Below, in pieces: positions 1,216 to 32,924 of a DNA stretch of 64,000 nt (position 1 is the stretch's first letter; each line of letters begins with the position of its first letter). The stretch is from Sanderia malayensis (taxonomy: Eukaryota > Cnidaria > Scyphozoa > Semaeostomeae > Pelagiidae). The DNA lies in the NCBI GenBank assembly GCA_013076295.1, contig RQOL01000920.1, positions 1 through 64,000 on the forward strand, written 5' to 3'. Both the position numbers and the translations under genes were made by a program. A model generated the notes under the pieces. That model was not told the DNA's origin. It saw only the letters and a program-made list of their open reading frames with translations, and ran no database searches.

Positions 1216-1290
1216 ATCAGGTCCTTCCTTGATAGCAGAATTTTCTGACCGAAGTAAACCTGTAAAAATATGATTTTAATAATAAATAAC

Positions 1291-7400: not shown

Positions 7401-7473
7401 TTCAGCCAGTTTTAATTAAATTGAGTGTTTCATTATTTTTACTTCTAGTGGGACCGGCTGGGCATGTGAGGGT

Positions 7474-13496: not shown

Positions 13497-13564
13497 GAAT
13501 CTGGAATAATCTAGAAAGTTTTTACAATTTATATTAGTAGAATTTAGAAAAATGAGCCATAAAT

Positions 13565-13675
13565 TTCCATCATACTAACTTTATTTTATAACAATTTTAA
13601 ACGTAACATATGCAGTAAATTTTTCATCATACTAACTTTATTTTATAACAATTTTAAGCACAACATGTGCAGCAT
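13565..13675. repeat. ~57-bp tandem duplication
   Basis: CATCATACTAACTTTATTTT with its flanks occurs twice in tandem (about 13568 and 13625). The second copy overlaps the C-terminal codons and stop of the neighbouring minus-strand gene, so the duplication covers its 3' end. Confidence 0.8.
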
Positions 13676-14393
13676 GCAGTATGTGTCATCTTCTGATATA
13701 GACGTTTTTCATCTTGGGAATCTTCTTCTTTCTTCCGATATAGCATTGTTTCATCTTCTGGATCTTCTTCTGCTATAGACATTTTTTCATCTTCTGAATC
13801 ATCCGTCTCAGCATTTCGGAAAATTATGCCATAGCAATCACACTGAGCGAAACCATCCCATTCTCGACCACAATCACCACAGATCGTTAACGTAGGAATT
13901 TCATCAGTGTACAATCCAGGAGTATAGCGATATAAGATGCATCTGTCCAGCCTATCATCTATCACCCCATATAGATTGAAAATGATTTCTTTTTTCCCCT
14001 CATCTAGACTGAGAAGAATTGAAGATTTTTCTTCAATCGTTAAAAATGGAGGATAGTAACCATATAACATATCCAACAAGTCTTTAAACAGGTAGACAAG
14101 TGTTGACCCAGATTCAAAATTTGACGCATCTCCATCTATTTCATGCTTATCGCATTCTCCCAGTGTCCTTCTTGTTCTTTGCGAAACATATCCCACGCAC
14201 CATTCTTTAGAGGCTTTGCTGTATATGTACGTTGATCGCCTCTGATGAATTGAACTAATGCTTCATAATACACATTTGTATGATACATTGGGGAAAACGG
14301 TAAACCCTCACTACAAAATGATGTAAAAAGAACTTCCACCTCATCAGTTTCTTCAATATCATCTAATGAGATTTTTGATTCAAAACGATACAT
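13654..14393 (-). pseudogene. Polinton accessory protein, acidic with Cys cluster, frameshifted
   Basis: An 85-codon frame starting at ATG 14393 and a 180-codon frame overlapping it near 14136-14196 read as one protein with a frameshift in the overlap. The first part begins MYRFESKISLDD. The second part has a hydrophobic stretch, a C-x2-C-x9-C-x-C cluster (CGDCGREWDGFAQCDC) and an acidic tail of imperfect repeats (EDEKM, EDETMLYRKK, QDEKRLYQK). A TATA box sits upstream at 14457-14466. I do not recognise the family. Its divergent position beside PolB suggests an early or regulatory product. Confidence 0.6.
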
Positions 14394-14890
14394 CTTGACT
14401 AATTACTTCTTTCTTCTTCAACGATTTATAGTTAAATGAAATCTACTCGACTATCCTTTTATATAAGTCTAAAGATGTTCCACTAGTTTCCAGAAGCAGA
14501 AGCTTCCAGAAGTTTCCAGGAGCTATCAACCAATCAGATCACAGGGACTTACACAAAAATATCGAGGAACTGGCAAATTCACGTTCTCGGCTCGAGATTA
14601 ATTCAAAGAACCAATCAGAACTTTCGAATGCGACGTTCGAATGTACGCGTCAAATCTCTGTCATGAAATAGAAATCAGAAACTTCTAGAAGTTTCCAGGA
14701 GCTATCAACCAATCAGATCACAGGGACTTTTCAGAAGTTTCTAGAAGTAGGAAAGTCCTCGGAAAAGTTCTAGAAATTTCTATGACGTCATAAAGAAGTT
14801 TCCAGAAGCAGAAATCTCTACAATCTGATTGGTTGATTTATGTATATAAATCATCCTCGAAATAAAATCACTTCAAATCACGATCTAGTC
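14394..14890. promoter_or_regulatory. divergent promoter with heat-shock-element arrays
   Basis: This region drives the minus gene (TATA 14457-14466) and PolB (TATATAAA 14843-14850). Perfect alternating GAA/TTC pentamers occur at 14499-14516 (four units), 14734-14746 (three), 14768-14780 (three) and 14795-14807 (three). A palindromic CRE, TGACGTCA, is at 14783-14790. ATTGG (inverted CCAAT) boxes sit just before the PolB TATA. A TIR-derived module is embedded at about 14545-14690. HSE consensus is established knowledge; heat inducibility is inferred. Confidence 0.75.
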
Positions 14891-17800: not shown

Positions 17801-18688
17801 CAAAACTTTTGGTTGAAAAAATATATTGATTTCAACACTCAAAAGAGAACTCAAGCAAGAAACGACTTTGAAAAAGATCTGTTCAAACTGATGAACAATT
17901 CTGTGTTTGGAAAGACGATGGAAAACGTAAGAAATCATCGACGTTTTGAAATCTGCACAGATGGTATAGTCCTGAGAAGATGGGTCAGAAATCCAAAGTT
18001 CTATGGAGTAATTGAAATTAATGAAGATACACTTTTGGTAGAGAAAAAGATTGGGAAAGTTAAACTCAACAAGCCAATGTATGTTGGTTTCAGCATATTA
18101 GATATTAGCAAGACATTGATGTATGATTTCCACTACAACTTTGCAAAACCAAACCTTCCAAACGTTCAACTATGCTACATGGATACTGATAGCTTCATCT
18201 ATGACATACCAATGTCTCAAGATCAAGTTAACAGAGTATTGAAAGATCATGAAGATGGATTCGATTTCAGCAACTATGATAAAGAACATCCAAATTACTC
18301 TGTAAGAAACAAGAAAGTTATTGGGAAAATGAAAGATGAGCTCGGTGGTGGGAAAATGATAGAATTCGTCGGATTGAGATCGAAGATGTATAGCCTCAGA
18401 ATCGATGATGGGCAAACAATCAAAAGAGCAAAAGGAATTAAAAAAGATGTGGTAAAGAAGCAAATAAAGCATGAAGATTACCTAGATTGCCTGAAAGAAC
18501 AGCAAACCTATTCACACAGGCAGCGTAATATTGAATCACACAATCATACCATCTACACAACAGAAAGAACAAAGAAATCGCTGAGCTCTTTTGATGATAA
18601 GAGATACATTCTTGATAATGGTTTTAACACACTGCCATATGGGCATTATTTGCAAGAAAATGCGCAAGCTGCTGAAGAAAGATACTGA
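14891..18688 (+). pseudogene. Polinton protein-primed family B DNA polymerase, multiply frameshifted
   Basis: Starts at ATG 14891, 41 bases after the TATA box, with a KKRK basic stretch. A C2H2-like finger follows but is broken by a frameshift near 14950. Further frameshifts lie near 15500-15520, 15770, 15990-16150, 16800 and 17340. Exonuclease motifs are visible: YADTES (about 16035), FHNLKGYD (about 16460) with a Cys/His knuckle before it, and YLKTDVLLLAD (about 17130). The last open segment, 17354-18688, has the polymerase motifs DANNLYGWAM, KLMNNSVFGKTMEN and YMDTDSF. It would replicate the element by protein priming. At least six breaks make it non-functional. Confidence 0.93.
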
Positions 18689-18731
18689 GAAAAAGACATT
18701 ATTTGAACATTTAAACTACTGAACATTAACA

Positions 18732-19199
18732 TTATTTTAAACTATATCTTCTATTAACATAATTGTAAACATACAAATCATTACTTAACTTATCATTTAC
18801 ATTAAAATATTTATTGATTAATGAGTTCATTGTAACGTTTTTTGTTCTATTAATGAGGAAGAACATGCAATGTTGTCCACAAGTCGCACTCTCATAGGAT
18901 TGAACTTGAGTTTTATTGTAAGTGAGCTTGAACGGATGAATGAAGTTTTTAAATTCTTTCAGCATAGGAGGCTCACCAAACGAATCATAAAAATCCAAAA
19001 CGCCATCATCGCTAATATAGACGGCTACCCAGTGAGTTCCTTTACCAGTAAAATTATCTTCATTGAAAATGAATGAGCAGGGCAGTGAATGCACATCGAT
19101 GTTTTTGATTTCATCTTTTCCAAATACACCATGGAAATAAGGTAGCTTTTCATGTTTCAGAAGTAAGTTATTGATTGTTATATCATCCATCATTACCAA
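18732..19199 (-). CDS. adenain-like cysteine protease (Polinton PRO)
   Basis: 155 residues, close to the usual Polinton and adenovirus protease length. The catalytic set is visible: His56 in GTHWVAVY, acidic residues at 69-72 (DFYD), and Gln100 and Cys107 in VQSYESATCGQHC. The Gln-Cys spacing equals that of adenovirus protease. Family members mature capsid and core proteins during assembly. The 3' end faces the PolB 3' end. Its ATG overlaps the stop of the upstream capsid gene. Open and apparently intact. Confidence 0.9.
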   Translation of the reverse strand: MVMMDDITINNLLLKHEKLPYFHGVFGKDEIKNIDVHSLPCSFIFNEDNFTGKGTHWVAVYISDDGVLDFYDSFGEPPMLKEFKNFIHPFKLTYNKTQVQSYESATCGQHCMFFLINRTKNVTMNSLINKYFNVNDKLSNDLYVYNYVNRRYSLK

Positions 19200-20506
19200 T
19201 CACGAATGATGTTTTTATGACTATCAATTTTAATTGTTCTGTCAAATTCTCCGAGAACAACAATATTCATCAAACTTACAACAGCCGTTGCAAAATTGAT
19301 GCTTATTCTCAAGTTACCCTCTCTTTTAAGCAAGTATTGTTCATCTGCACAATTTCCCTTTGGTGTCAAGTCAAAACCATAAATTGCTGATCCTTGATTG
19401 AATCTCTCATAATCAACCAGACTAGCTGAATTGCCCAGAGTAGTCAACAGACGGCTATAGGCATCGAAATAGTCATTATCATCATAATCCAATCTTAGAG
19501 GGGGAGTGACCTCTTGATTGTTAACAGTCACTTGAACGCCAGAAACTGATCCATGTACAAAGTTGAATGGGTTTTGTTCTGAAGATCCATTAAATGCAGA
19601 ATTATCCACAAGAGCAAAAAACAATCTGTTTGGTACTTTTCCATTAAACACATTGTCTTGAACCCAGCTCGTTGTTGCAGCGGGGACCAAAAAGTTTGTC
19701 ATATGGGGTTGACAAAGAGGATACATGGCTGGAGATTTCATCAGAGTCCTTTCAATTCCTTTCAATACTGCATCTTTAACGTGTATATGACGAAGTATCA
19801 ATTTCACTTCATAAATGAAAAGCTGTGGAGATGTTCCAGTTTTGCTCATTAAACAAAACAAATTACTGTTGGGACTCAATCGCCATTGAAGACGTACGCC
19901 AGGTAGTAGGTATTTGAGTTGATTGCAAATGTTAACATGGGGTTTTGTTAACACTTTGACTTTCTCGCTGTCGTCAAATGGCGCAGATCTTGTGTTCAAT
20001 CCTTGATTTTTCGCTGATGCCGTATTCGTTGGGTAAGCAGCATCTTCCTTACCTAGTGTGTCACTGGCCCAGTTTGTCATTTTCAAATAGTTTTCAGCTT
20101 TAGTTTCGTCAAACGACAACATTGTTTCCAAGTAAGATTGGTATGCATACATCCCGTTTGCTTCTGTGACAGGGGTGTCATTCAAAACCAGCTCTATCTG
20201 CTTCCACATAGATTGACCAATGTTATTTACTACTCCTACAAATTCTGCAGTTGTTTTTCCAATATCAGCTCCATTTGCTTTCTTAATAGCAAGAGTTGAG
20301 ACGAAATAAGAATGATTCAAATCAATCATATGATCTGGCTGGGCAGGAATGTCAAACACAACAGTCTGCTTTGAGGAATTGAGAGCAGCAGTTTGTGGAA
20401 AATACTCAACATCTTTAAAATAATCAACATCGCTTTGAACTATCGGTGTACTGAATAAATCTAAACTCTCACTAGGGCACTCAGTATATTCTGTTTTTAT
20501 ACTCAT
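19193..20506 (-). CDS. major capsid (hexon-like) protein candidate
   Basis: 437 residues. It belongs to the family annotated in animals as F54H12.2-like, whose nematode neighbour F54H12.3 is a Maverick integrase. Visible hallmarks are an N-terminal strand region with NNIGQSMWKQIELVLND, a YQSYLETMLSF block, and VPNRLFFALVDNSAFNGS before a second strand-rich half. This resembles double jelly-roll capsid proteins, the Polinton major capsid. Placement between protease and a basic core-like protein fits. The assignment rests on pattern and context, since no structure comparison was possible. Reading frame intact; overlaps both neighbours by a few bases. Confidence 0.7.
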   Translation of the reverse strand: MSIKTEYTECPSESLDLFSTPIVQSDVDYFKDVEYFPQTAALNSSKQTVVFDIPAQPDHMIDLNHSYFVSTLAIKKANGADIGKTTAEFVGVVNNIGQSMWKQIELVLNDTPVTEANGMYAYQSYLETMLSFDETKAENYLKMTNWASDTLGKEDAAYPTNTASAKNQGLNTRSAPFDDSEKVKVLTKPHVNICNQLKYLLPGVRLQWRLSPNSNLFCLMSKTGTSPQLFIYEVKLILRHIHVKDAVLKGIERTLMKSPAMYPLCQPHMTNFLVPAATTSWVQDNVFNGKVPNRLFFALVDNSAFNGSSEQNPFNFVHGSVSGVQVTVNNQEVTPPLRLDYDDNDYFDAYSRLLTTLGNSASLVDYERFNQGSAIYGFDLTPKGNCADEQYLLKREGNLRISINFATAVVSLMNIVVLGEFDRTIKIDSHKNIIRDW

Positions 20507-21012
20507 TGTAACAATTTCTTCTTCAGCAGTTTCTTCAACAAATTTTTTCTCAAATCTGGACGCTTTGCTTTAGGCTTCTTGCTCTTATTTGGCATGAAGA
20601 TCCCTCTCATGGTGCTTTCTTTTATAGTTCTTTTAGGACGGCTCCTTGATTTCCTACCAGTGACAGAGCGCTTCTTGGCAGGTGGTTTTTTTGCTTTTTT
20701 TACGACATTTACAATTTCTTCAGTAGCTTTTCTTTTAATTCCTCTCATAGAAGATTGTGCGGTATCTTTCATAACATTTTCAACATTTTCACCCGCTAAC
20801 ACTCGATCAACCGCCTTTTCTCCAAAATCTTTTAAAACAGGAAGTACAACTTTTTTTGTAGATTTTAGTCCTTGCTTTTTCAAAACTGGTATTGCAGCTT
20901 TAACAGCTCTTTTGAAAATAGACCCAGCTTTCTTGAAAATAGTACCTACTCCTCTCCCACGCTGGGAAGCATAGAAATATGGAGTTGATTTGTAAATTGG
21001 AAAATCATACAT
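20503..21012 (-). CDS. basic core/pVI-pX-like Polinton protein
   Basis: 169 residues, very rich in Lys and Arg. The N-terminus is aromatic (PIYKSTPYFYASQRGRG). An amphipathic stretch (IFKKAGSIFKRAVKAAIPVL) and a long basic tail with PPAKKRS and SRPKRT runs follow. Adenoviruses and Polintons encode short basic core or membrane-active proteins in this slot beside the capsid gene. Exact equivalence to pVI, pVII or pX cannot be fixed by eye. Start overlaps the upstream gene; frame intact. Confidence 0.6.
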   Translation of the reverse strand: MYDFPIYKSTPYFYASQRGRGVGTIFKKAGSIFKRAVKAAIPVLKKQGLKSTKKVVLPVLKDFGEKAVDRVLAGENVENVMKDTAQSSMRGIKRKATEEIVNVVKKAKKPPAKKRSVTGRKSRSRPKRTIKESTMRGIFMPNKSKKPKAKRPDLRKNLLKKLLKKKLLQ

Positions 21013-22017
21013 GCTTTCTTCTAAAATGTAGCAAGAATGTTGTCTTTGTCTTGTAAAATTGTATATCTTTTCCTAGCTCGTTGTAGACTTTTATAGTAAA
21101 TTCGTTTATGTCGTTGTACAGCAACGGATAGTAGAACAGATTTTCAAATTCTACAAAATTCAGCACATGTTTGTTAATCTTCAATGGAATGAAACGCAAC
21201 AATGGTGTGCTAATTTTTCCGACTACACGGTAGTCTAGCATGGAGCAATATATAAACATATTCTTCCCTTCTGCGTTGACTTGGAAATCTTGATCACCAG
21301 TCACATCAGTTGTTCTTTCGATAGCCTTGAATGTATGATTTGATAGTAATCCAATAGGTGGATCTAGACTATTTGTAAACGGGCAAGGTGTCCATCTCAC
21401 ATCTCTATAATAGACATTATTTATATTGCGACTATATTCCTGCACATCTTCAACAAAACCAAACAATTTACATAAATCTTTTCCCATTGCAATTCTTTTT
21501 GCGTACTTTGGAAATGTTATCTTGACTTTTGAATCCACAATTGAAAACTCTGGTCCACCTTCATAAGGTAAACCTAAATCAGTTACATACTCTTTCAGTT
21601 CTCCCTCTTGTTTTTTTACGTTTTCATTGAAAATTGCAACGATTTCTCTCATTGTGAATTTTTTAATAGTATCTCCACTCGAGATTTCATCATAGAAGTC
21701 GCGATATTGTATCCATCTCTCAGGTTTATCTGCTGCTTGATTCCATTTTTTCGTATATTCATTACTTGACGCTACTCTCACATTTAACTCATCAAACCAA
21801 CCTTATCAGTGCCAAGTTGCATCAATCCATACATTTTCCAACTATTGTAAACACCGTGTTTAAATTGAGCAGGATCAAATACAAGTCTATCACTCAGCTC
21901 ATAGATCATTTCTACCAGCGCCACTTCCCATTTTCCATGTAAATGTAATTGTTCTTTAAGTTTTATTTTTCCATCAGAATCAGTAGGACATGTGAGGTAA
22001 AAATCATTAATCATCTT
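21005..22017 (-). pseudogene. Polinton structural-module protein, frameshifted near 21785
   Basis: Two adjoining frames, an N-terminal piece (ATG about 22011 to stop 21784) and a C-terminal piece (to stop 21005), together resemble one protein. The N-terminal piece has LHGKWEVALVEMIY. The C-terminal piece ends in a strand-rich region with FENLFYYPLLYNDINEF and LLHFRRK. The upstream gene at 22366-23400 has a related N-terminal WEMALLQM and a similar C-terminal layout, so the two may be paralogous minor capsid, penton or fibre proteins. Function is inferred from position and repeated architecture only. The break could also be a true gene boundary with a non-ATG start. Confidence 0.5.
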
Positions 22018-22369
22018 TAACGAATGATAAATCAATTTGACAATTTTCTTCAAATTTATCTGATATATCTTCCAGAGTTTCCCAGTTGATAATTTTAATA
22101 TCGAACGATTTTATGTTAGATCTTGTTACTCTATACGTTGCTGGATTTATAGTTGATCTGTGAATTGATTTTGAATCGTCAATAACTAGCCCCAATAGAG
22201 GAACAGCATCCTTACTTATAATGAAATTGCAACAAACAGCAAACACTTTTTCACTCTCATCTTTTTCTTTTTTATTTAATGTACAAGCAATCATACTACA
22301 TTTCCAATTAGTATCCACTGGAAGTGGATTATCAAAATTTACATGTCTATTATTTAGTGTCACATTCAT
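22007..22369 (-). CDS. small Polinton protein, unknown
   Basis: 120 residues, starting at an ATG that overlaps the stop of the 22366-23400 gene and ending inside the start of the next gene. No signal peptide, membrane segment or known motif is visible. The close packing implies co-transcription with the capsid genes. I do not recognise it. Confidence 0.6.
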   Translation of the reverse strand: MNVTLNNRHVNFDNPLPVDTNWKCSMIACTLNKKEKDESEKVFAVCCNFIISKDAVPLLGLVIDDSKSIHRSTINPATYRVTRSNIKSFDIKIINWETLEDISDKFEENCQIDLSFVKDD

Positions 22370-23400
22370 ATTACTGGCCTAATTCGAACGGTCAGTGATG
22401 TTTCTCCAATATACTGCTTTGCGGAATAGAGAGATGTTAATTTTATAGGATTTCCATCATCATCTACCAATTTTATTTGAATTTGTTGAAACTGCAGCCT
22501 CTCCAGTGGTGTGTAAATTATATTCTTCGGAGCGTAATATCTAACATATGTATCAAGATCTGTATCGTAAAATGCTAGTTTTCTCAAAACTCTTCGTTTG
22601 TTAACACCTCCAAGATAGTTGCTTTCCAATAGATCACATTCTACATTTATAGAAGTATGTTCATTTAGATGAACACCGTCCTTTATTCTGCTTAAGCAGT
22701 TTATCTTTCCTCCAGTCAGCGAGTCACCATCTGCCTTCCTTTTGTAAACAATCAGTTTCATTGTTTGACTGGATTGTATACTATCAGAAATCTTGTAGTG
22801 AAAGTATTTGACTATTGAGCCATTTGGTAAAGTGTGGGTGACCTGATCTTCTAAACCAAGAAAATGTGCCAAAGGTCTTGAAAATGTTATTAAAAGTGCA
22901 CTAGTATATCTCCGTCTTTTACCTCCATGAGTTGCAAAGCCTAATGTTTTCAAATCATCTTTCATTTCAAACTGTATCTTTCCATCAATTAATGATACTG
23001 ATAACATGTTTTTTAATATGTACCCAAATTCAGGGAAATCCAAGACTCTATCATTGAAAAGTCTTTTGAATTCATAATACATCAGAGTATTATCACGGGT
23101 TTCGATAATTTCTTTATCAAGACGGATCTTTTCATAGAAAAAACCATCTGTACCCCAAGAAATCAATTTTCCATCTTCATCGGTAATAGTCACATACTCG
23201 TTGGAAATTGAAAACCAGTATTGATCATGTAATGATTTTTCTCCTCTATCTGGCAGCGTCATTTGTAGTAATGCCATTTCCCATTTTCTTTTATTGTTTA
23301 ATTGAAAAACGTGAGGTAAATCAACTGTGAAATCTACTAGTTTTAATCTATCAGTAACAAATCCCGAAGGAAGAACCAAGTCAAATTCTTCATCAATCAT
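22366..23400 (-). CDS. Polinton structural-module protein, candidate minor capsid/penton
   Basis: 344 residues. An N-terminal strand-rich domain contains FQLNNKRKWEMALLQMTLPD. A central region of alternating strands follows, with the basic patch GGKRRRYTS near residue 160. The C-terminus has PLERLQFQQIQIKLVDDDG and ends in TVRIRP. The WE-A-L motif recurs in the adjacent 21005-22017 product. Polintons carry a single jelly-roll minor capsid protein near the major one, and this is the best-placed candidate, but the fold is not proven from sequence. Frame intact; overlaps both neighbours. Confidence 0.55.
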   Translation of the reverse strand: MIDEEFDLVLPSGFVTDRLKLVDFTVDLPHVFQLNNKRKWEMALLQMTLPDRGEKSLHDQYWFSISNEYVTITDEDGKLISWGTDGFFYEKIRLDKEIIETRDNTLMYYEFKRLFNDRVLDFPEFGYILKNMLSVSLIDGKIQFEMKDDLKTLGFATHGGKRRRYTSALLITFSRPLAHFLGLEDQVTHTLPNGSIVKYFHYKISDSIQSSQTMKLIVYKRKADGDSLTGGKINCLSRIKDGVHLNEHTSINVECDLLESNYLGGVNKRRVLRKLAFYDTDLDTYVRYYAPKNIIYTPLERLQFQQIQIKLVDDDGNPIKLTSLYSAKQYIGETSLTVRIRPVI

Positions 23401-24451
23401 ATTGTCTCTAATTGACTTTCAGCTACCCACTCATCAAACTGGGGAGGATAACCTCTCCACCTGATTAAATAGAAGTTTTTACCTCTTTTTTTCTTAGTTT
23501 CCAACACTTGCTCGACGACGAAGGTTTTTGGAAGATACACATGTTGTAGCTCCTCTTTATAGAAGCGATCATCTATCTCTTCATCTTGGAGATCTTCAAT
23601 TTTATACATTACTGGATACCTTTCTTTAAACACTTTGCTAATCTTGAATATTTCTTCAGTGTAATTTTGTAAATAACCTTTCTTAAACATTCTCTTCTTC
23701 AAACTCAGTCTTACATAATCTCCAATTTTAAAGATCTTTTTATCTTTTTTAGTTTCTTTTTTAAACAGCTTTTTTCGACAGTGCTCACATTGTTTGGATT
23801 AACTTCAGAAGGTCTCATACCAATAGATCTATGATAGGTATTGTTGTAAGAATCAACAAAATCTTGTAGATTATCAATATATCTTAACGTATTTTTGGCT
23901 GTGAAGTATCTATACATTCTTCCTTTAAGTGTTCTATTGAATCTTTCCACAATTGCGGCCTTTACATCATTATTTGCAGTGTAAAAATCGATATCGTTTT
24001 TCTTCAGCAAAGCTTGAAATTCTTTGTTTAAAAACTCAGTACCTTTATCAGATCGTACCTTTTCCGGCTTTCTTTCCAATAAAATTTCTTTAAAAGCATC
24101 GACAATTTCTTTTCCTGTTTTTCTTTTCAGAGGCTTTACCCAAGCATACTTGCTAAAAGTATCAATACAGCATAATAGAAATGTAATGTTGTTGTTTTCT
24201 TTTTTCAAATATGCCATATCAACAAGATCGCATTCCCATAAATAATCAATGTTATTAGTTAGTATCCGCTCACGTTTAAAGTTCTTCCTACTTGGTCTGT
24301 GCAATGAATATGCAAGACTAGTTTTACTCCATTCTTTAACATCTTTTCTTGTTAGATTAGGAATTACTTTTTTAAATTCCTTATATGCTTTATCTAAACC
24401 TCCAAGAGAACCCGGAACAGAAGGATCAGAATATAACTTTTCTAGATTCAT
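23397..24451 (-). pseudogene. Polinton retroviral-type integrase with chromodomain, one frameshift
   Basis: The main frame (23711-24451, 246 residues) holds a complete D-D-E core: Asp75 in WECDLVD, Asp135 in VRSDKGTEF and Glu169 in VERFNRT (spacings 59 and 33). A one-base loss near 23775-23780 shifts the frame into a stop. The remaining part (23397-23702) carries the SH3-like linker and a C-terminal chromodomain with YLIRWRGYPPQFDEWV. The family inserts Polinton DNA and makes 6-bp duplications, matching this copy's own ends. It is the homologue of nematode F54H12.3. The frameshift removes the chromodomain and probably disables targeting. Confidence 0.92.
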
Positions 24452-24678
24452 AACAAATCAATTAATATTTCTAACAATTTATCATTTATAGAGTTTTTCT
24501 TCCGTGGTCTGTATGTTCTTTTCCTTTTGCCACCTGATAGACGCTTTTTAGACTTTCTTCCTTTATTTATGATCTTTTTGGGCTTTTTCTTCGCCGGTTC
24601 ATCAACAGTTGGAAATGATTCGCTAGGTTGTATGATTATCTTTTCAAAAGAAGTCATTTTTGCTGTTTTCATAAACAT
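24448..24678 (-). CDS. small basic Polinton protein
   Basis: 76 residues with a central cluster of basic runs (AKKKPKK, GRKSKKR, GGKRKRTYRPRKK) and a short hydrophobic C-terminus. Its stop overlaps the integrase start and it lies just after the ATPase. A nuclear-localising or DNA-condensing role is possible but not shown. Confidence 0.5.
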   Translation of the reverse strand: MFMKTAKMTSFEKIIIQPSESFPTVDEPAKKKPKKIINKGRKSKKRLSGGKRKRTYRPRKKNSINDKLLEILIDLL

Positions 24679-24686
24679 ATAGATGG

Positions 24687-25361
24687 CTATTTATAACCTT
24701 TTTTAGACTTGTACACTGCTGTGGGAGCTTCATGAGGGAAAATATTTGTTCGAAATCTCATATCTTCATTCATTGATTGGGTGAAATCACAGAGTAGATA
24801 TCCATACATTCTTGCTGTTGCATCATTATAAATGTCAAGAAATGTTTTAGGAGATGCAGGCATAATTTGTCGTGCGAGAAATCTAATTTGACTTCTATCT
24901 CTAGGATTTTTGAAAAGAACTTGATATTGAGTATTGAGAGCCAAATTTCTCATTTCCGTTCCTCTTGGGAAAGGATTTTGCATCATAACAATAACATTAA
25001 TGTTGAGATGAGATCTTCCTTTTGTGAACAATTTTCCCAAATCTTTGAAGTTTGCAATTTCATGCATTAGATCATCAACAACAATAGTTAATCTTTTGTC
25101 TGACCTCTCGATTTCTTCGTACAAGTTTTCAGGTAATTCAGTAATAAATCTACAATTCCCAACAAAACTTTTTTTAATGCGCTCAAATAGCTCTGGCTGG
25201 TTCGTTCCTGAGATCCACATGAGATTGGGATATTGCCTGCCATCATCGATTATATTATTATAATTTTTAAATAGATTTTCTACCCAAGTAGTTTTGCCGC
25301 TTCCGCTTACTCCAGATAAAATCAGAGAAAAAGGTGCTTTAAATCTCAAGTCATAACTCAT
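24687..25361 (-). CDS. FtsK/HerA-type DNA packaging ATPase
   Basis: 224 residues. Walker A is GVSGSGKTT at residues 17-25 and Walker B is LTIVVDDLM at about 91-99. A downstream VMMQNPFPRGTEMRNLALN block carries the sensor or arginine-finger region. Size and motif layout match the A32-like packaging ATPases of Polintons, which translocate the genome into the capsid. The frame is open and all nucleotide-binding residues are present. Confidence 0.88.
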   Translation of the reverse strand: MSYDLRFKAPFSLILSGVSGSGKTTWVENLFKNYNNIIDDGRQYPNLMWISGTNQPELFERIKKSFVGNCRFITELPENLYEEIERSDKRLTIVVDDLMHEIANFKDLGKLFTKGRSHLNINVIVMMQNPFPRGTEMRNLALNTQYQVLFKNPRDRSQIRFLARQIMPASPKTFLDIYNDATARMYGYLLCDFTQSMNEDMRFRTNIFPHEAPTAVYKSKKGYK

Positions 25362-25473
25362 ATTTATAACAAATTTAGAACGTCTCTTTACAACAATAAC
25401 TAACCTCTATTTATAACAATTTTTAGAACAAATAACTAACAACTATTTTTAACACAAATAATGTTTATAAAAC

Positions 25474-26580
25474 TTAAACAAATGGTGTGACTAAATTGTT
25501 TATAATCCTGTTCAATATCTGTAGCAAATATACGGATGTAGAGAGGTTTGTATGTGATAATTCATCATACAGATTTCCGACATTGGATTTGATTGTTTGA
25601 GTTAGACGTCCATTCTTCAACTCATCAAACATTGATTTTTTGAACGATTCTTTCCCCTCAGCCAGCATATCGGCGTTGACATAACTGATGTGAAACGATA
25701 AAAATCTGAAAGCATTGTGAACCATACAATCTTGCTTGTGGTCAGTAGCATCAATTGATGTAGAGTAAATCTTTGTAGTTGAGCATTTTTCACAGTATTC
25801 TTTTGCTTTTTTGAAAATGCGTTTCAAGAGAATTGTAGCATATGCTTCTTGTACTCGTACATCAGCATCTTCTTCTTGGAGTTCAGCATATGCTTTTTGC
25901 AGCATTTCATCATCATTTCCTGATGCTGCTTTAACTGAGGAATCATCAACATGTTCTTTCTTTTTTTGAGCTGTGATATTTTCTTTCTTTTTTTTCTTCG
26001 CATCAGATTCGGCACTTCCAGAAGATGATGGTATAATTAATGATAGAGGCCTTTTGCGGGATGACGGTGCTAGCATTTTCAGATCAGCAAGCTTTCCATG
26101 CAATGCTTCCAACATTTCTTCTTTTAGATTTATTCCAGTTTTAGTTGGTTTCTCATTCTTCCATCTTCGTATTCCCAGGCATAACTTTATGGGAAAATCA
26201 CCATTTTTCTGCAGATAGATTACAACCTTATCTTCATGTGCTTCTTCTTTGCTCAAAACTTCAGTGTATAGGGTTAGAAATTGAGTATACGTTCCCCCAT
26301 ATCGCTTCGTTTCAATGATGGCGCCGTTCTTCTCAAACAGACTTGTAACATCTTCTCCATGAAATTGTAATTTATGATTTATCTCACCGAGATTTATGTT
26401 GCTATCAACTATTTCCAAGAGACGAGCCAGTGCTGCATGAGAAATAGCCATTGATTTTACAGCTAGTGCACCTTTAATCATATCTTTCACCACCAGCACC
26501 CATTTGTTAGAGGCAGCTTGAACAGCAAATGATGTCTTGATTAGGCCCTCTTCATTTCTAACTTCGTAAATTCCTGCCAT
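25474..26580 (-). CDS. Polinton accessory protein, unknown
   Basis: 368 residues, ATG at 26580, with a HSE/CCAAT/TATA promoter directly upstream. The N-terminal ~160 residues look globular and mixed alpha/beta. A charged low-complexity linker follows (AKKKKKENITAQKKK, about 203-217), then a helical C-terminal domain with Cys residues in AKEYCEKCSTTK. The promoter suggests separate control from the capsid cluster. I do not recognise the family. Confidence 0.6.
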   Translation of the reverse strand: MAGIYEVRNEEGLIKTSFAVQAASNKWVLVVKDMIKGALAVKSMAISHAALARLLEIVDSNINLGEINHKLQFHGEDVTSLFEKNGAIIETKRYGGTYTQFLTLYTEVLSKEEAHEDKVVIYLQKNGDFPIKLCLGIRRWKNEKPTKTGINLKEEMLEALHGKLADLKMLAPSSRKRPLSLIIPSSSGSAESDAKKKKKENITAQKKKEHVDDSSVKAASGNDDEMLQKAYAELQEEDADVRVQEAYATILLKRIFKKAKEYCEKCSTTKIYSTSIDATDHKQDCMVHNAFRFLSFHISYVNADMLAEGKESFKKSMFDELKNGRLTQTIKSNVGNLYDELSHTNLSTSVYLLQILNRIINNLVTPFV

Positions 26581-26865
26581 GATTCTTCAGCGATTCTTTA
26601 GTGATTTTTTAAGCTCTGCACTCTTCAACAGCTCCGCACGACTGATTTGATTTAGCTTCCGACGTCTGTTTATGTGTATAAATCAACCAATCAGATTGCA
26701 GAGATTTCTGCTCCTGGAAACTTCTGGAAGCTTCTGCTGCTGGAAACTTCTGGAAGCTTCTGAAAAATCTCTGTGATCTGATTCATCGTTCGAATGTTCT
26801 AGAACCTTCTTCGAAGTTTCTAGTTATTATTGAAAGGTGGTGTTAGCATTCGAAGTTCGAATGTT
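26581..26865 (-). promoter_or_regulatory. HSE-CCAAT-TATA promoter of the 25474-26580 gene
   Basis: Two identical four-unit heat-shock elements (GAAACTTCTGGAAGCTTC) lie at 26717-26734 and 26743-26760, and a further TTC/GAA/TTC run is at 26797-26809. CCAAT is at 26687-26691 and a TATA-like GTATAAAT at about 26676-26683, read on the minus strand. The CAATCTGATTGGTTGATTTAT block matches the one before PolB, so the two promoters share one ancestor. Confidence 0.75.
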
Positions 26866-27417
26866 CTAGAACTTTCTTTCGAAAGTGTTTGAGGCAAATT
26901 CTTCTACAATTTCTGCTTGAACTTTAATCATATCACTTAAAAATTTATCCTGATTCCACTCTATTAAATCTCCAGTTAAATAATAATACAACAACTTTGC
27001 CAACCTTCCATTTCCATCAGGAAAAGGGTGAATCCATAATAACAATGCTGTAAGTTCTATTGGATTATAGTAATGCTGCCTCTTTATTAATTGGTTTAAT
27101 AAAATTTCTATCTGATCAGGTTTACAATATTCTATTATCTCTGTTTCACTCATGCGTGCACATCTTACACTATTTGCAAATTTACCATGATATTCAGGTA
27201 AAATAAATTCATGTGTTTCTTTTACCATGTCAGTGTCGATTGTAAATCGAGAAATGTAATTTCTATCAAGCACAACCTCTCTTATCGTTCTTAGATATAC
27301 ATAAGCATCCTCTAAATTTGCCTTGTTTATACAGTCAACTTCACCTTCTGACTTTAAAATAGAATGCAGCATCTTTCTTTCTACTTCATCAACATTAATT
27401 CTGTATACTCGACTCAT
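26866..27417 (-). CDS. Fic-domain protein (probable AMP- or nucleotidyl-transferase)
   Basis: 183 residues, ATG at 27417. The Fic active-site loop HPFPDGNGRLAK is at residues 130-141. It matches H-x-F-x-D-G-N-G-R-x-x-R except for Lys in place of the last Arg. A flap-like LPEYHGKFANSVR lies at about 73-85, before the loop as in other Fic proteins. Fic enzymes usually transfer AMP from ATP to a hydroxyl on a target protein. No clear inhibitory S/T-x-x-x-E-G/N helix was found. Fic is not a usual Polinton gene, so this is acquired cargo. The target is unknown; modulation of host proteins is a guess. Confidence 0.85.
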   Translation of the reverse strand: MSRVYRINVDEVERKMLHSILKSEGEVDCINKANLEDAYVYLRTIREVVLDRNYISRFTIDTDMVKETHEFILPEYHGKFANSVRCARMSETEIIEYCKPDQIEILLNQLIKRQHYYNPIELTALLLWIHPFPDGNGRLAKLLYYYLTGDLIEWNQDKFLSDMIKVQAEIVEEFASNTFERKF

Positions 27418-27523
27418 TATGAATTATTCTCGAGCTCCTATCTCCACGAACTTCTTATTGGAAATGAGCTTTTTGTCTGAGATTTGTTCATCTATTTCTT
27501 TCAATTTTGTTCATTTAAAAATG

Positions 27524-27970
27524 TTAGGTTCTTACTCTTGCTATTTTTATAGATCTAGTCCCACTTCGTCTACCTTTCATATGCTTCTTCCGCTTCTTAC
27601 GCATCCTCCGCTTTCGGCCGCCTTGCATTTTCCTCATAGCTGTGTCTAAACCATATCCAGCTGCAACGATTGCTCCACCTTTTGCAGCTTTCTTAGCACC
27701 TCTCAATGCCATCTTCTTAACAGCTTGTTTACTAACTCGTTTTGCTATCGCTCTTCCACCCTGTCTTACAGCTTGTTTAATAGCTTGCCTAGCTGCTACA
27801 CGTGCTATCGCGGAACCCATCTTTGTTGATTTCCTCTCTCCTTTTCGTATTCTATCCCTTTTATACTTTCCTTCACCCGTCATTAGTTTAGTCGCTTCAA
27901 CTCCACCATCATCCTTCAACATATCGTCTATCAGCATTGATGCTACAACACTTGCTGCTATACTAGCCAT
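27524..27970 (-). CDS. basic Polinton protein with hydrophobic segment
   Basis: 148 residues. An alanine-rich N-terminus (MASIAASVVASM) is followed by a basic amphipathic region, a hydrophobic segment (AAKGGAIVAAGYGLDTAM, about 95-112), and an extremely basic tail (GGRKRRMRKKRKKHMKGRR). The layout resembles adenovirus-like core or minor capsid peptides that bind DNA and membranes. The identification is by composition only. Confidence 0.5.
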   Translation of the reverse strand: MASIAASVVASMLIDDMLKDDGGVEATKLMTGEGKYKRDRIRKGERKSTKMGSAIARVAARQAIKQAVRQGGRAIAKRVSKQAVKKMALRGAKKAAKGGAIVAAGYGLDTAMRKMQGGRKRRMRKKRKKHMKGRRSGTRSIKIARVRT

Positions 27971-28013
27971 GATTATATTATAGCTATTAAAGCGTTCTTC
28001 CTTCTTTTATAAT

Positions 28014-28292
28014 CTATTTCTTAAATTCTTCATCTGCATATGCCCACTTATCGCGTTGTTTTTTCGGTACTCCGGCAGCTCTCCAAAATTCCCTAGGGAT
28101 GAATTGTAGGGGTTTTGGTTTTTTCCAACCCTTTTTCCATATTGTTGGTTTCAACTCTCGCTGTAATCCTGGTAGTGGTGTTGCCGCAATAGCTGTTTTC
28201 ACAACCCAATTTTGTATGTTTTTAAAAAGACCTTTACCCCTAATTCTCTTAGTGAGCCGTTTCTTTCTACTCTGTCTCTTGCGCTTACCCAT
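28014..28292 (-). CDS. small basic Polinton protein
   Basis: 92 residues beginning MGKRKRQSRKKRLTKRIRGK, followed by an aromatic and proline-containing region (IWKKGWKKPKPLQFIPREFW). It is just downstream of a short leader and in line with the other minus-strand genes. It is likely nucleic-acid binding. No named family recognised. Confidence 0.5.
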   Translation of the reverse strand: MGKRKRQSRKKRLTKRIRGKGLFKNIQNWVVKTAIAATPLPGLQRELKPTIWKKGWKKPKPLQFIPREFWRAAGVPKKQRDKWAYADEEFKK

Positions 28293-28449
28293 CTTTATTA
28301 TGAGGTAAATGCATTGTTTTTATAAGAAATTTAAGACGAAAAAGCTGTTTAATGAATGCGTGCATTGCCCTCCGACATTGTGCCATTTTCATTATTGTAA
28401 TGATGCAGATTCCTTATATAGACCCATGCATACAAATAAAAACACGCAT

Positions 28450-28980
28450 TTACATGAGGATATCATTTTGTGTAATTTCAACATCTCCCCATTCTCTAAG
28501 AACACAATCATATTTAATGTTATAAAGTAAACAATCCACCCATAAACTACTAATGTTGTATTGTTTCTTTGTGTGATGATAGATAATTTGCTTCTCTATC
28601 CAAAGGAGTATCACAGCAAACCTTCCCAAGTTTCCATTTCCATCTGAAAAACTTTCATTGAATAGTGTTTTCAAGGTGTCATTGATCCTGTCTTTCCATC
28701 CATCTTCATTCACCGGAGATTCTTCAATCAGCAACCCATCTTCAGCATCCTTTGCTTGTGGTAGATTTCCAAGATTAACGCTTATTCGAGCAAATCCCAT
28801 AAACTTGTGTAAATTCTTGTATACTTTCCCAAGATATATGCGTCGAACTTGAACCTTTGTATTAATGCCCATTACATCTCTAAAATGTTCCTTCAAATAG
28901 ACCAAGAGCAAATCTTTTTTTGTTCTTTGTAGAAATGACCAAAAGTCATTAATTATAATGTGTGCTAATGTTAACAACAT
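28450..28980 (-). CDS. Fic-like protein with degenerate active site
   Basis: 176 residues. Residues 109-120 read ESFSDGNGNLGR, which keeps F, D-G-N-G and the final Arg of the Fic loop but replaces the catalytic His with Glu and the first Arg with Asn. A hydrophobic helix (FAVILLWIEKQ) follows, as in Fic folds. Upstream, a GFARISVNLGN strand could be the flap. Loss of the His predicts no AMP transfer, so this may be a binding-only paralogue or antagonist of the 26866-27417 protein. The frame is intact, which argues against simple decay. Confidence 0.65.
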   Translation of the reverse strand: MLLTLAHIIINDFWSFLQRTKKDLLLVYLKEHFRDVMGINTKVQVRRIYLGKVYKNLHKFMGFARISVNLGNLPQAKDAEDGLLIEESPVNEDGWKDRINDTLKTLFNESFSDGNGNLGRFAVILLWIEKQIIYHHTKKQYNISSLWVDCLLYNIKYDCVLREWGDVEITQNDILM

Positions 28981-29224
28981 CTTTGCTACTGAGATAATAA
29001 GTGAAATCGATCGTTTTTATAGATTACTCGAAATCCTGCGCATGCGCAGTTAAGAAGCTGGTTCTAGCCCACCTGATTAAAGTATGCCAATTCGAATGAA
29101 GATTATGTAATCATTCAAAGAAGGTTCGAGCCATAAAGTGATGCATGTGCAGTTGAGAGGTAGAAGCATATAAGAATACACACAGTAATATTTTTTCTGA
29201 ATTATCATTTTTAACATAATTAAC
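28981..29224 (-). promoter_or_regulatory. probable promoter of the Fic-like gene
   Basis: On the minus strand a TATAAAAACG box lies shortly before ATG 28980. Further upstream is the palindrome CTGCGCATGCGCAG (about 29036-29049), a match to the NRF-1 consensus. Similar CGCATGCGC palindromes occur in both terminal repeats. Confidence 0.5.
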
Positions 29225-29515
29225 TTATATTTCATCATTATCATCTTCATCATCATTAACATCATCATCATCATTATCATCATTATCACTTAATATATAT
29301 TTTTTTTGTATAGTTTCATCCCTCAATGCGTGGGCAAAAATCTTCATGATCACTTCATCATCATCATCTTCAAAATCATCATCTTCAAAATCATCATAGT
29401 CTTCATCATTATCGTTAGGACATCGATGACTTATGCCCAAGAACGGCAAAAGTGCCCAACACACCGGACATTTAAACGCAATTAATGCCCCGTTTTCGAC
29501 AGTTAATGTATTCAT
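29225..29515 (-). CDS. small acidic protein with Cys/His cluster
   Basis: 96 residues. The N-terminal half has C-x2-C...H-x-C (FKCPVC, then SHRC), enough for one zinc site. The rest is dominated by Asp/Glu/Asn runs (DDFEDDDFEDDDDE and a C-terminal DDNDDDDVNDDEDD stretch). The low-complexity ATC/CAT repeats in the DNA inflate the acidic part, so the true protein could be shorter. Acidic zinc proteins of this size can be transcription regulators or mimic DNA, but no function can be assigned. Confidence 0.45.
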   Translation of the reverse strand: MNTLTVENGALIAFKCPVCWALLPFLGISHRCPNDNDEDYDDFEDDDFEDDDDEVIMKIFAHALRDETIQKKYILSDNDDNDDDDVNDDEDDNDEI

Positions 29516-29663
29516 GTTTCTTCTTCTTTTTCTAACTCCAAAATAAACGAACCATAATCACTAATATTATGAATTAATTCCAAATAAAGCTGTATGGATA
29601 AAAAAGATTTGAAGCAAAAAAAAATGCAACTTACTTTTTGAATGTCCGGTGTGTTTGAATATC

Positions 29664-30123
29664 ATTCCAGATTCCAGAAGTTTCTGCTTTCTCATGACAG
29701 AGATTTGCCACGTACATTCGAACGTCGCACTCGAAAGTTTCTGATTTGTTCTTTGAATTCAATCTCGAACCGAGAACGTGAATTTGCCAGTTCCTCGATA
29801 TTTTTGTGTTTTCTTGCGATTTATTTAACAAATTCTTATCATCTTATAAGTGCATGAAAAATAGGAAATAATTCATTCAATATAATCAAGAGATTTTCTT
29901 TTTATTGCTGCAAAAATCTTTTCATAAACAAAACCGTTTTTTAGTTATTAAGCTTTTATGGGTTTTTTATCAGCTTTGGCGATGTTTTGCAACTTCAAAC
30001 TAACTTTACCAGATTCTAGAAGTTTCTGATTTCTCATGACAGAGATTTGCCGCGTACATTCGAACGTCGCATTCGAAAGTTTCTGATTGGTTCTTTGAAT
30101 TCAATCTCGAGCCGAGAACGTTA
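29664..30123 (-). repeat. internal third copy of the Polinton terminal repeat
   Basis: This segment matches 31773-32165 of the right terminal repeat, in the same orientation. It runs from CAGAAGTTTCTGCTTTCTC through the block with CAAGAGATTTTCTTTTTATT to the TTCGAACG region. At about 30064-30123 it continues into a second partial copy of the inner module rather than the outermost ~80 bases of the terminus. The RING/PHD-like gene is therefore bracketed by direct repeats. Confidence 0.9.
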
Positions 30124-30280
30124 AATTATAGTTCATCATCCTCTTCATCATTTATTATAATAAACCTTCTTTTTTGCAGAAGTTTCTGATGAAAAATTGT
30201 ATATTTTTAGATGATGATTATTTTAATTGAAAAATGCTGGATTTATTTCGCGTACTATTTCACGCCAGAGCTTGAAGAGT

Positions 30281-30457
30281 ATATAAAAGAAATTGTTTTT
30301 CTTTCTCATAAATAATTTCTATAAACATATAGACAATTTAAAACACTTTAAAAACACTTTAAACAACAACAATAAATAATTAAAAATGACCATAGCGGGG
30401 GGTCCATCGGTTTCTGGCCAATTCAAAAACTTGTTCTCTAAAATTAATCATTGTTGA
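30281..30457 (+). other. possible plus-strand promoter and 23-residue frame
   Basis: TATATAAAAG at about 30281 is followed by an A-rich leader and an ATG at 30385. That ATG opens a 23-codon frame (MTIAGGPSVSG...) running antisense to the 3' end of the zinc-finger gene. The longer plus-strand frame downstream is a composition shadow of the zinc-finger tail. A real product is unproven. Confidence 0.25.
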
Positions 30458-31733
30458 TAAAAAGTTTAAGTTCTCTGTGCTAGCATTAGCATATCTCATC
30501 ACAGCCAATAATTGTTCTGGATCATTAATCTCATCTTCTTCATCCTCGTCTTCGATGCTCGGGCTGTATCCGGGATTGACGACTATTGTTGGAGGGATGC
30601 CTCCATCAAATGCCATCCTGGCCATTTCGTTAACTGTGTCCTCCCATGGGCTCGGGAGATCTTGCCGGTCAGTATCCCCCGATGGAACCCATGGCTCTTC
30701 TAATGCTGTTGGTGCTGCCTCTACTGGCTCTTCCAATGCTGCTGGTGACAATGGTGCTATTATTGGCGGCGATAGCATCGTTACTGACGATGATGCTGAT
30801 GATACTGTTATCGGTGATGATGGTGGTGTTGTTGGTGATGCTGCCCTGAGAGACCGACGAGATATAGATATTCTCGATGCCGGTGATGATCTCAGGGACA
30901 GGCGAGTCCGCATCGACGGTGTTGATGTTCTTCGCCGAGATCGGCGAGATCTCCGCACTCCTCGCAGTGGTGCCCGCGGCGGTGTTTGCGGCACCCGCGG
31001 CGATGTTTGCGGCGGTGTCCTGAGTTGAGGCACTGATTGTAATATCTAAAAATAGAAAAAAAAAAAAGATTTAAGCGAAGATCTTTACATTAAAATGTGC
31101 ATTAGAATGAGTAAAAATTATATTAAAAACTACCTCAATCCGTACATATACTGCTGGCGTCAGCCTGCACAGCAGACAGTTGTTGTTGTATTCGCTCCAT
31201 CTAAACATAAGAATAACCAATTAAAAATAATCAATTATTAAGTAAAGAAGCATAATAAATAGATAAACAACAACAACAACTTACTGTATGCTACATGCCG
31301 CATGATACACCTGCCGGCACTGGGTACATCGGTGAAAAGCTCCCTCCTCCGTATCGTCACTCATACATATCCTACAATTTCCCTCGGGGAAAATTTCCTC
31401 TCTTGGCAACCTAGAATAAAAATGTGGTTCGAGTCATTCCAGATTCCGAGTGGTTTGGTTTATATACGAGCACGCAGGAGTCTATGATAGACCCCGGGCC
31501 AGGTGAAGTTTTTGTAAACAGATAATAAAATGATAAGTATTGCATCTTATGCTGTTAACATTACATACCTCAATACACTTCTTCTTGCTCTTGGTCGCTG
31601 AAATATAATAACAACTTATTAAAGCTTTTTAAAGAAAGTTTTACAAAATTTGAAAAGCGTGCCAACTTTCAAAGCTGTTGCTGTTTTTTAAAACACCTGC
31701 TTAGTATTTAAAAACAATAGCACTTACAACCAT
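30380..31733 (-). CDS. five-exon C4HC3 (RING/PHD-like) zinc-finger protein
   Basis: Exons on the minus strand: 31728-31733 (ATG), 31569-31597, 31285-31410, 31134-31200 and 30380-31045. Each intron has GT...AG ends (donors GTAAGT, GTATGT, GTAAGT, GTAGTT; pyrimidine-rich acceptors) and the phases join without a break, giving 297 residues. Exons 3 and 4 together encode one finger, C-x2-C-x12-C-x2-C-x4-H-x2-C-x10-C-x2-C. A Trp follows the sixth ligand, as in RING E3 ligases. The tail is rich in Pro, Ser and Arg, then acidic (EDEDEEDEINDPE). No membrane segment is seen. Transcription would start in or near the right terminal repeat. Ubiquitin-ligase activity is inferred. Confidence 0.75.
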
Positions 31734-31772
31734 TCTTTAGTCTTTATCTTTCTTCTGAAACAAAGGAAAGAC

Positions 31773-32245
31773 AGAAGTTTCTGCTTTCTCATGACAGAGA
31801 TTTGACGCGTACATTCGAACGTCGCATTCGGAAGTTTCTGATTGGCTCTTTGAATTCAATCTCGAGCCGAGAACGTGAATTTGCCAGTTCCTCGATATTT
31901 TTGTGTTTTCTTGCGATTTACTTAACAAATTCTTATCATCTTATAAGTGCATGAAAAATATGAAATAATTCATTCAATATAATCAAGAGATTTTCTTTTT
32001 ATTGCTGCAAAAATCTTTTTCATAAACAAAACCGTTTTTTAGTTATTAAGCTTTTTATGGGTTTTTTATCAGCTTTGGCGATGTTTCGCAACTTCAAACT
32101 AACTTTACCAGATTCTAGAAGTTTCTGATTTCTCATGACAGAGATTTGCCGCGTACATTTGAACGCCGCATTCGAACGCGCATGCGTGATCTTAACACAT
32201 TCTAATGCGCATGCGTGTCCTCGGACCCCCACTCCCTCTCCTACT
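31773..32245 (-). repeat. Polinton right terminal inverted repeat
   Basis: 473 bp, complement of 13026-13496, ending CCCCACTCCCTCTCCTACT. It carries the same CGCATGCGC palindromes and GAA/TTC triplets. It also supplies upstream sequence for the spliced zinc-finger gene. Confidence 0.95.
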
Positions 32246-32251
32246 CATTGG
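32246..32251. repeat. Polinton target-site duplication, right (CATTGG)
   Basis: Perfect match to 13020-13025. Joining the flanks at one copy restores the host frame across a Leu-Ile-Gly-Leu-His junction. Confidence 0.95.
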
Positions 32252-32924
32252 CCTTCATGCATATACTGGATGTGACACAGTGAGCGCATTCGCAAGCAAA
32301 GGCAAAACATCTGCCTTGAAGCTGATGATTGCAAATAAGGATATCCAACAAACGTTCTCAATGGTTGGCGAGCAATGGGATCTCTCTCCAGAACTCATGA
32401 ATGAGCAAGAAGCATTCACATGCCTCCTCTACCCACCCAAGGGAGCATCAACGAAGGTAAATGACCTCAGATACACACTTTTCTGTTCGAAAAAAGGAGA
32501 GATAGAGAGCCATCAACTCCCGCCTTGTAGAGACTGCCTGGAAAAGCATGGGCAAAGGGCCAACTTTCAAGCTGCAGTATGGAAAAGGTGTCTTGAACAA
32601 GATCCAAATGTACCTAGTCCCATCCGTAGAGGATGGAAGATGGAGAGAGAAGAAGGAACAGCGGAGTTAGTAGTTCATTGGATGGATGGATAGCCGGCGC
32701 CTACGGCAGTCCTTGATTTATTAGCTTGTAATTGCTCCAGGAAATGCACCCTGCCAAAATGCGAGTGCATAGCGAATGGGCTTAAGTGTACTGAAATGTG
32801 CAAGCTGAAACACTGTGAAAACCAGGTTACCTTAGAGAGTGAAGAAAGTGAAGATGAAGAAGTAGACGGAGAAGATTTGGATGAAGAGGAAGACGAATAT
32901 GGCAAAGAAGAAGACGAATATTGA
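32246..32924 (+). pseudogene. Academ-like transposase relic, 3' part with Cys8 cluster
   Basis: Continues the protein interrupted at 13025. It starts with GLHAYTGCDTVSAFASKGK, which resembles the helix-turn-helix region of XPG/FEN nucleases, and has a conserved CRDCLEKHGQRANFQAAVWKR block. An in-frame TAG at 32691-32693 interrupts it. Reading on gives an eight-cysteine cluster (CNCSRKC through KLKHC, about 32730-32815) and an acidic tail ending at TGA 32922-32924. XPG-like nuclease plus Cys8 finger is the combination I associate with the Academ superfamily. That link is from memory, not a search. Confidence 0.75.

Follow-up and report, generated by a model that had tools for sequence, protein, structure and literature searches.

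A predicted five-exon RING-finger gene between subterminal repeats at one end of a Sanderia malayensis Polinton

The window, meaning the whole stretch of 64,000 nucleotides analysed here (positions 1 to 64,000 of contig RQOL01000920.1, Sanderia malayensis assembly GCA_013076295.1), contains a 19.2 kb element that its sequence identifies as a Polinton. Near its right end lies RING-A, a RING gene predicted to be spliced from five exons between 31733 and 30380 on the minus strand, with one terminal stop and a product of 297 aa. The features used below are the following:

13026 to 32245, no strand assigned: Polinton carrying RING-A, 19.2 kb, with terminal inverted repeats; ends AGTAGGAG...CTCCTACT
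13026 to 13517, plus strand: left terminal 69 bp and subterminal repeat, delimited by repeat comparison
13654 to 14262, minus strand: S gene in the left-end cassette, reading outward
23711 to 24457, minus strand: integrase (rve), 43.9 bits against a cut-off of 32.6; query for the count of sister Polintons
29654 to 30127, minus strand: inner subterminal repeat, in direct orientation relative to the outer copy, closing the right cassette
30380 to 31045, minus strand: predicted RING-A exon 5, 666 nt, the tail
31134 to 31200, minus strand: predicted RING-A exon 4, 67 nt, with W55, zinc ligands 7–8 and R66
31285 to 31410, minus strand: predicted RING-A exon 3, 126 nt, with zinc ligands 1–6
31569 to 31597, minus strand: predicted RING-A exon 2, 29 nt, acceptor TTTCAG, donor GTATGT
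31728 to 31733, minus strand: predicted RING-A exon 1, 6 coding nt, ATG and one codon
31772 to 32176, minus strand: outer subterminal repeat, ending 38 bp before the RING-A ATG
32177 to 32245, minus strand: terminal 69 bp of the Polinton, absent from the inner repeat copy

The element has AGT/ACT ends and is flanked by a 6-bp target duplication, CATTGG, at 13020–13025 and 32246–32251; ends and duplication enclose RING-A, which bears out the placing of the gene inside a Polinton in a preliminary description of this DNA. Both the end motifs and the 6-bp duplications are shared with vertebrate Mavericks, as these are described in PMC8097293. An A32-type packaging ATPase scored above its cut-off (Pox_A32, 29.4 bits; cut-off 22.8). 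Scores under the cut-off were obtained for a protease-like ORF (Peptidase_C5, 18.6 bits; cut-off 21.3), a capsid-like ORF (Capsid_N, 13.1 bits; cut-off 24), and one of several broken pieces of the polymerase ORF, taken unjoined (DNA_pol_B_2, 21.1 bits; cut-off 25.8). A protein-set search gave 21 relatives for the capsid-like ORF, with no capsid named among them, and IMG/VR scans with this ORF and with RING-B, an intron-free RING gene of sister Polintons described below, confirmed no relative. The integrase, ATPase, protease-like, capsid-like and Fic genes are each single ORFs, consistent with the earlier remark that Polinton core genes are usually intronless; the polymerase is broken in this copy.

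The Fic/DOC-domain ORF, located at 26866–27423 on the minus strand, encodes 185 aa with an HPFPDGNGR motif (Pfam Fic, 37.3 bits; cut-off 24). It has 151 matches in the genome, many of them unbroken, with relatives at 40–46%, and seems to be a regular component of these Polintons; the occurrence of a Polinton together with a Fic domain was not found in the open-licence literature. The Polinton itself interrupts an ORF on the plus strand (12673–13025 and 32246–32693) that resembles, by eye, the ORF at 59323–61248, and positions 1240–7401 of the window are occupied by long tandem arrays with periods of ~182 and ~137 bp.

The coding parts of the five RING-A exons (6 + 29 + 126 + 67 + 666 nt) add up to 298 codons with all joins in phase, and the four introns of 130, 158, 84 and 88 nt are all GT-AG in the window copy. 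The G+C content is 0.19–0.38 in the introns versus 0.45–0.50 in exons 2–5. A DNA search of the species' own genome (184 Mb, 918 contigs) with exons 1–4 recovered at least 28 matches, at least 22 of them full-length; among the partial matches, four retain exons 4–5 without exons 1–3, and two retain exon 1 with part of intron 1. The ATG is preserved in all 22 full-length copies, and 174 of their 176 splice dinucleotides are canonical. The remaining two are GC variants of the exon 1 donor, GTAAGT in the window, and occur in copies L022 and L023, which share one insertion site. Exons 1–4 are of exact length in 19 copies (exceptions: L017, −2; L021, −3; L029, +1), exon 2 having the same length in all 22, and intron lengths vary among copies (129–133, 149–161, 78–84 and 83–89 nt). 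As a separate observation, an ORF with an OTU-like GGDGNCFFRA motif, recognized by eye, is joined at L031:1613-2605 (plus strand) to a RING-A lacking exons 1–3.

Splice-site conservation by itself says little among copies this young, and more weight falls on the composition step, on the dependence of the domain profile on the exon join (see below), and on a control for chance. In a scan of the window on both strands in 2-kb stretches, a good donor and acceptor joined in phase to give Cx2C..Cx2C..H-x2-C..Cx2C occurred in 1 of 64 stretches, that of RING-A; no finger-making in-phase donor/acceptor join arose in 300 dinucleotide shuffles of the RING-A region. The scan addresses chance and not the choice of pattern, because the pattern was designed after the finger was known. 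The preliminary description had proposed five exons and four GT...AG introns without phase errors; the frames indeed join exactly, the 22 copies support the structure, and we consider the exon chain well supported and the five-exon model confirmed at the level of sequence. It had also looked to related Polintons for finger exons that were out of phase or absent. Of the 22 copies, 21 enter the finger in the correct reading phase, in favor of the model, and, on the other side, many sister Polintons lack RING-A; the defects seen are a frameshift before the finger in L017, a stop inside it in L014, and a stop at codon 5 in L025 and L028.

Exon 5 is the least secure exon, because an ORF on the opposite strand (30396–31028, plus strand, 210 aa) is constrained at least equally: the ratio of non-synonymous to synonymous changes among copies was 0.50 for the antisense ORF (p = 0.016) versus 0.66 for exon 5 (p = 0.14), and substitutions do not settle the coding strand of this region. 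Upstream of the gene, an acceptor-like TTTCAG lies at 31760–31755 on the minus strand, 21 nt 5′ of the ATG, and is kept in 20 of 22 copies. It may mark an intron in the 5′ UTR, with its donor side in the terminal repeat.

The finger, CRICMSDDTEEGAFHRCTQCRQVYHAACSIQWSEYNNNCLLCR, has eight predicted zinc ligands in cross-brace order with the spacing Cx2C-x12-Cx2C-x4-H-x2-C-x10-Cx2C, and the exon 3/4 join (CA|A after CSI) falls mid-domain. That the finger appears only after splicing, with ligands 1–6 in exon 3 and 7–8 in exon 4, had been read from the sequence before and is upheld by the profile scores: exon 3 alone reached 14.1 bits against Pfam zf-RING_2, exon 4 alone had no Pfam match, and the joined exons reached 29.0 bits in the window and 34.1 bits in copy L022, above the curated cut-off of 27.3 bits. 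It is the 76-aa finger piece that passes, the full 297-aa protein scoring 25.4 bits. The profile search of the spliced product against RING, RING-CH and PHD families, suggested as a check, placed zf-RING_2 above its cut-off; the RINGv (RING-CH) score of the joined finger was 15.5–16.7 bits, under a cut-off of 21.6.

The finger might instead be a PHD-type or other zinc-binding reader or DNA-binding module, and the protein a regulator with a disordered tail and not a ligase. The C4HC3 order with Cx2C-x4-H-x2-C resembles that of PHD fingers, unjoined exon 3 scores higher against PHD (18.7 bits) and C1_2 (19.0 bits) than against zf-RING_2, and the basic stretch of the tail would suit nucleic-acid binding. 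Once joined, however, the finger scores only 17.4–18.2 bits against PHD (cut-off 24), far less than against zf-RING_2, and the spacing of 10 residues from ligand 6 to ligand 7, the Trp at +4 and the CPxCR of most copies are RING-like. The top PDB matches are, moreover, E3 ligases. The window finger alone placed Arkadia on top (6.2e-7), and a joint profile of four RING-A and four RING-B fingers recovered 39 sequences at E ≤ 0.01, headed by the RING E3 ligases Arkadia (best, 4.3e-9), RNF38 and RNF165. We regard the PHD-type reading as unlikely.

These RING-H2 ligases share CxIC, C-x3-W and C-x2-C-R with RING-A. They differ at ligands 3–5, where the canonical RING-H2 C-x-H-x2-H is absent from RING-A and replaced in the alignment by Cx2C-x4-H, with an extra Cys three residues earlier. 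RING-A keeps the Ile of CxIC (I26), the Trp four residues after the sixth ligand (W55) and the Arg after the eighth (R66), and position 63 is Pro in most copies and Leu in the window copy and L028. We take I26, W55 and P63 to be the usual E2-contact positions and R66 to be the linchpin position. On these grounds we classify the finger as RING, not PHD or RING-CH, and its product as a probable ubiquitin ligase. The preliminary description, noting that RING-CH and PHD-type fingers share this spacing, had allowed for a ligase role; the ligase direction and the PHD-like ligand order stand, while the class gives way to RING.

The remainder of the protein belongs to no family in Pfam or PHROGs, in agreement with what had been noticed from the letters alone. 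Residues 77–170 are Pro/Ser/Arg-rich and basic (net +18), followed by an acidic part (net −10) and a C-terminal part (net −8). A search of a 5.8-billion-protein set with the 297-aa protein yielded no homologue at E ≤ 10 among 5179 candidates.

Each end of the Polinton in the window starts with the terminal 69-bp piece, followed by a subterminal repeat of ~400–420 bp; a gene comes next, and the repeat then recurs in direct orientation, this second copy being shorter at the left end than at the right. RING-A occupies the right cassette and reads inward, and the S gene occupies the left one and reads outward. This placement in a terminal cassette between two subterminal repeat copies, on which the earlier reading was silent, is, from the arrangement of the repeats, a new finding. 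The outer repeat lies upstream of RING-A in all 22 copies (~0.95 kb off in L024), and the inner repeat accompanies it in 19, the exceptions being L014, L015 and L018.

It is very improbable, in our judgment, that RING-A is a host gene merely beside a Polinton, or a chance join of unrelated ORFs. Introns are a host-gene trait and Polinton core genes are usually described as intron-free, which would fit the former; however, the gene lies within the element ends with the target duplication outside, the outer repeat precedes every copy, and none of the 22 full-length copies was seen at a host locus without Polinton repeats. The shuffles speak against a chance join.

The origin of the gene was pursued in the same genome. 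Searches for a host donor with exon 5, exons 1–4 and the finger returned family copies and RING-B, and no donor. Once family copies were set aside, the finger found its best matches at 32–36% identity, and 10 of 12 such places were RING-B. An introner origin of introns 1–3 was likewise rejected, the 600-bp stretch that holds them matching family copies only. No processed, intron-free copy was seen in the finger search, since no high-identity match crosses the exon 3/4 join.

Sister Polintons were counted through 50 listed integrase matches with 90% or more identity to that of the window, fragments included. RING-A was found within 14 kb of at least 12 of them; among the matches listed, 10 have it on the right side, always on the integrase strand, and two on the left side only, on the opposite strand and reading inward. 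RING-B was near at least seven, always on the right side and on the opposite strand, and S near at least 14 (12 left, 2 right). RING-A and RING-B were never together among the matches listed, with 0 of 50 observed and 1.7 expected by simple multiplication, a difference not significant by itself. In six other Polinton ends read for cassette content, S lies between the repeats in C730 (right) and C569:36068 and also at the left ends of C714 and C440, the C181 end holds a 166-aa ORF and a remnant of S, and at the C317 end two repeats adjoin directly, with no gene separating them.

The S gene (window 13654–14262, minus strand; L053, L054, L057, L058) encodes ~230 aa in unbroken copies and matches neither a PHROGs family nor, above cut-off, any Pfam family. 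The 166-aa ORF of the C181 cassette corresponds to L055:822-1319 (minus strand). An ORF beside RING-B at L048:2-463 (minus strand) is similar to it by eye and has a D-x-E start like DEDD exonucleases; the L055 ORF had no Pfam match, and neither ORF had a PHROGs match.

RING-B (L045–L052) is a single-exon RING gene of ~128 aa that reads outward, 6.3–8.0 kb from the integrase. Eight loci were fetched and seven ORFs aligned, L050 being left out. The two copies scanned score 31.4 and 33.4 bits against zf-RING_2, and RING-B is found as PF13639 proteins in two public sources (P0022, P0023). Across five copies (L045, L046, L048, L051 and L052), dN/dS was 0.22 for the finger, pointing to constraint there, and 0.59 for the remaining sequence; the L048 copy is without the last Cys. 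Within the 3 kb fetched, the 69-bp terminus was present in four of six RING-B loci (L045, L046, L047 and L049), and none of the six yielded the longer subterminal repeat seen in the window. RING-A and RING-B have the same ligand order (Cx2C..Cx2C-x4-H-x2-C..Cx2C), and both lie at the right end. They differ in that RING-B is without introns, lies on the opposite strand and has a different tail. A single gene that gained or lost introns was considered and is not claimed, the two being only ~32% identical across 34 residues (29.3 bits); an ORF at C777:3443231 that looks unrelated matched RING-B at 31.3 bits in a different program.

Selection on spliced RING-A is weak. Pooled pairwise dN/dS among the 22 copies was 0.57 for the finger, 0.74 for exon 5 and 1.2 for exons 1–4. 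With L015, L020, L021, L023 and L028 dropped as duplicates of the same site, 17 copies were retained. Variants present in two or more of them occurred at 1 of 108 non-synonymous finger sites versus 25 of 460 intron sites (p = 0.041), a contrast that is not significant when singletons are counted (p = 0.16) or a three-copy threshold is applied (p = 0.22). Zinc-ligand codons are intact in 173 of 176 cells across the 22 copies, the changes being H48R in L014 and C62S in L015 and L018.

The near-neutral dN/dS outside the finger would also be expected of a dead cassette, recently acquired and hitch-hiking, without function for the Polinton. The whole spliced frame is open in only 6 of 22 copies, the other 16 having stops, frameshifts or truncations, and 38 of the 50 listed integrase matches have no RING-A match within 14 kb, some of these being fragmentary or close to the end of a contig. 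Any transposon, however, is expected to have decaying old copies, which mask selection. Flanks beyond the terminus could be read for 19 of 22 copies and represent 14 distinct sites; RING-A has therefore moved with the element, as a cassette travelling with mobile elements. The conserved ligands, and the constraint on RING-B near the same end, likewise argue against a dead cassette, which we consider rather unlikely.

The explanation we find fairly probable as a whole is that RING-A is a Polinton accessory gene, spliced by the host, that encodes a RING E3 ligase in an exchangeable cassette. Host RNA polymerase II would read it inward from the right terminus, starting 38 bp inside the outer repeat, and host machinery would splice the transcript. 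The N-terminal RING would recruit a host E2 via I26, W55 and, in most copies, P63, with R66 as linchpin, and the basic Ser/Pro-rich and acidic tail may select the substrate, for which a host restriction factor is the likeliest candidate. Action on this factor would help expression or replication of the Polinton. The cassette would be exchangeable, sister ends holding RING-B, S, another ORF or nothing. By analogy, the most likely role is that of a nuclear E3 ligase against host factors. Viral RING ligases of the herpesvirus ICP0 type combine an N-terminal RING and a long disordered tail and are encoded by a spliced nuclear early gene; we liken them to RING-A by general features only, not by sequence.

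Nearer to Polintons, the polinton-like virus CpV-PLV Curly has a predicted E3 ubiquitin ligase, which, its authors suggest, could modify proteins of the virus or of its host and perhaps counter host defences (PMC6459981). The likeness is one of an E3-type gene in a Polinton relative; Curly is, in contrast, a protist-associated virus, and its E3 is described as an ORF. Polinton-like viruses also have introns inside genes, but those reported in PMC12220804 are group I introns of 309–376 bp in a short gene beside the capsid gene, whereas the RING-A introns are GT-AG. Vertebrate Mavericks carry diverse accessory genes in two regions that border the core modules, and genes of intact elements are reported without introns (PMC8097293). 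In a survey of endogenous viruses, genes were called with an intron-blind program for the reason, given in its text, that these viruses “do not contain introns” (PMC10120064). In the open-licence literature, no description of a spliced RING gene in a Polinton was found.

RING-A matters because Polintons are usually described as intron-free and because sisters carry a different, intron-free RING there. A bolder reading, which we hold only tentatively, is that swappable terminal cassettes load alternative counter-host weapons by recombination, both from one element to another and across the inverted ends of a single element, with RING-A and RING-B installed separately and excluding each other. 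If so, this would be modular counter-defence in a transposon, with an intron-bearing accessory gene of a kind described in no Polinton paper found. Spliced accessory genes would escape intron-blind gene calling, and RING-A has no relatives in the protein searches, while the capsid-like ORF and RING-B have them. RING-A also indicates where these Polintons keep exchangeable genes, and points to ubiquitin ligases as a recurring choice there.
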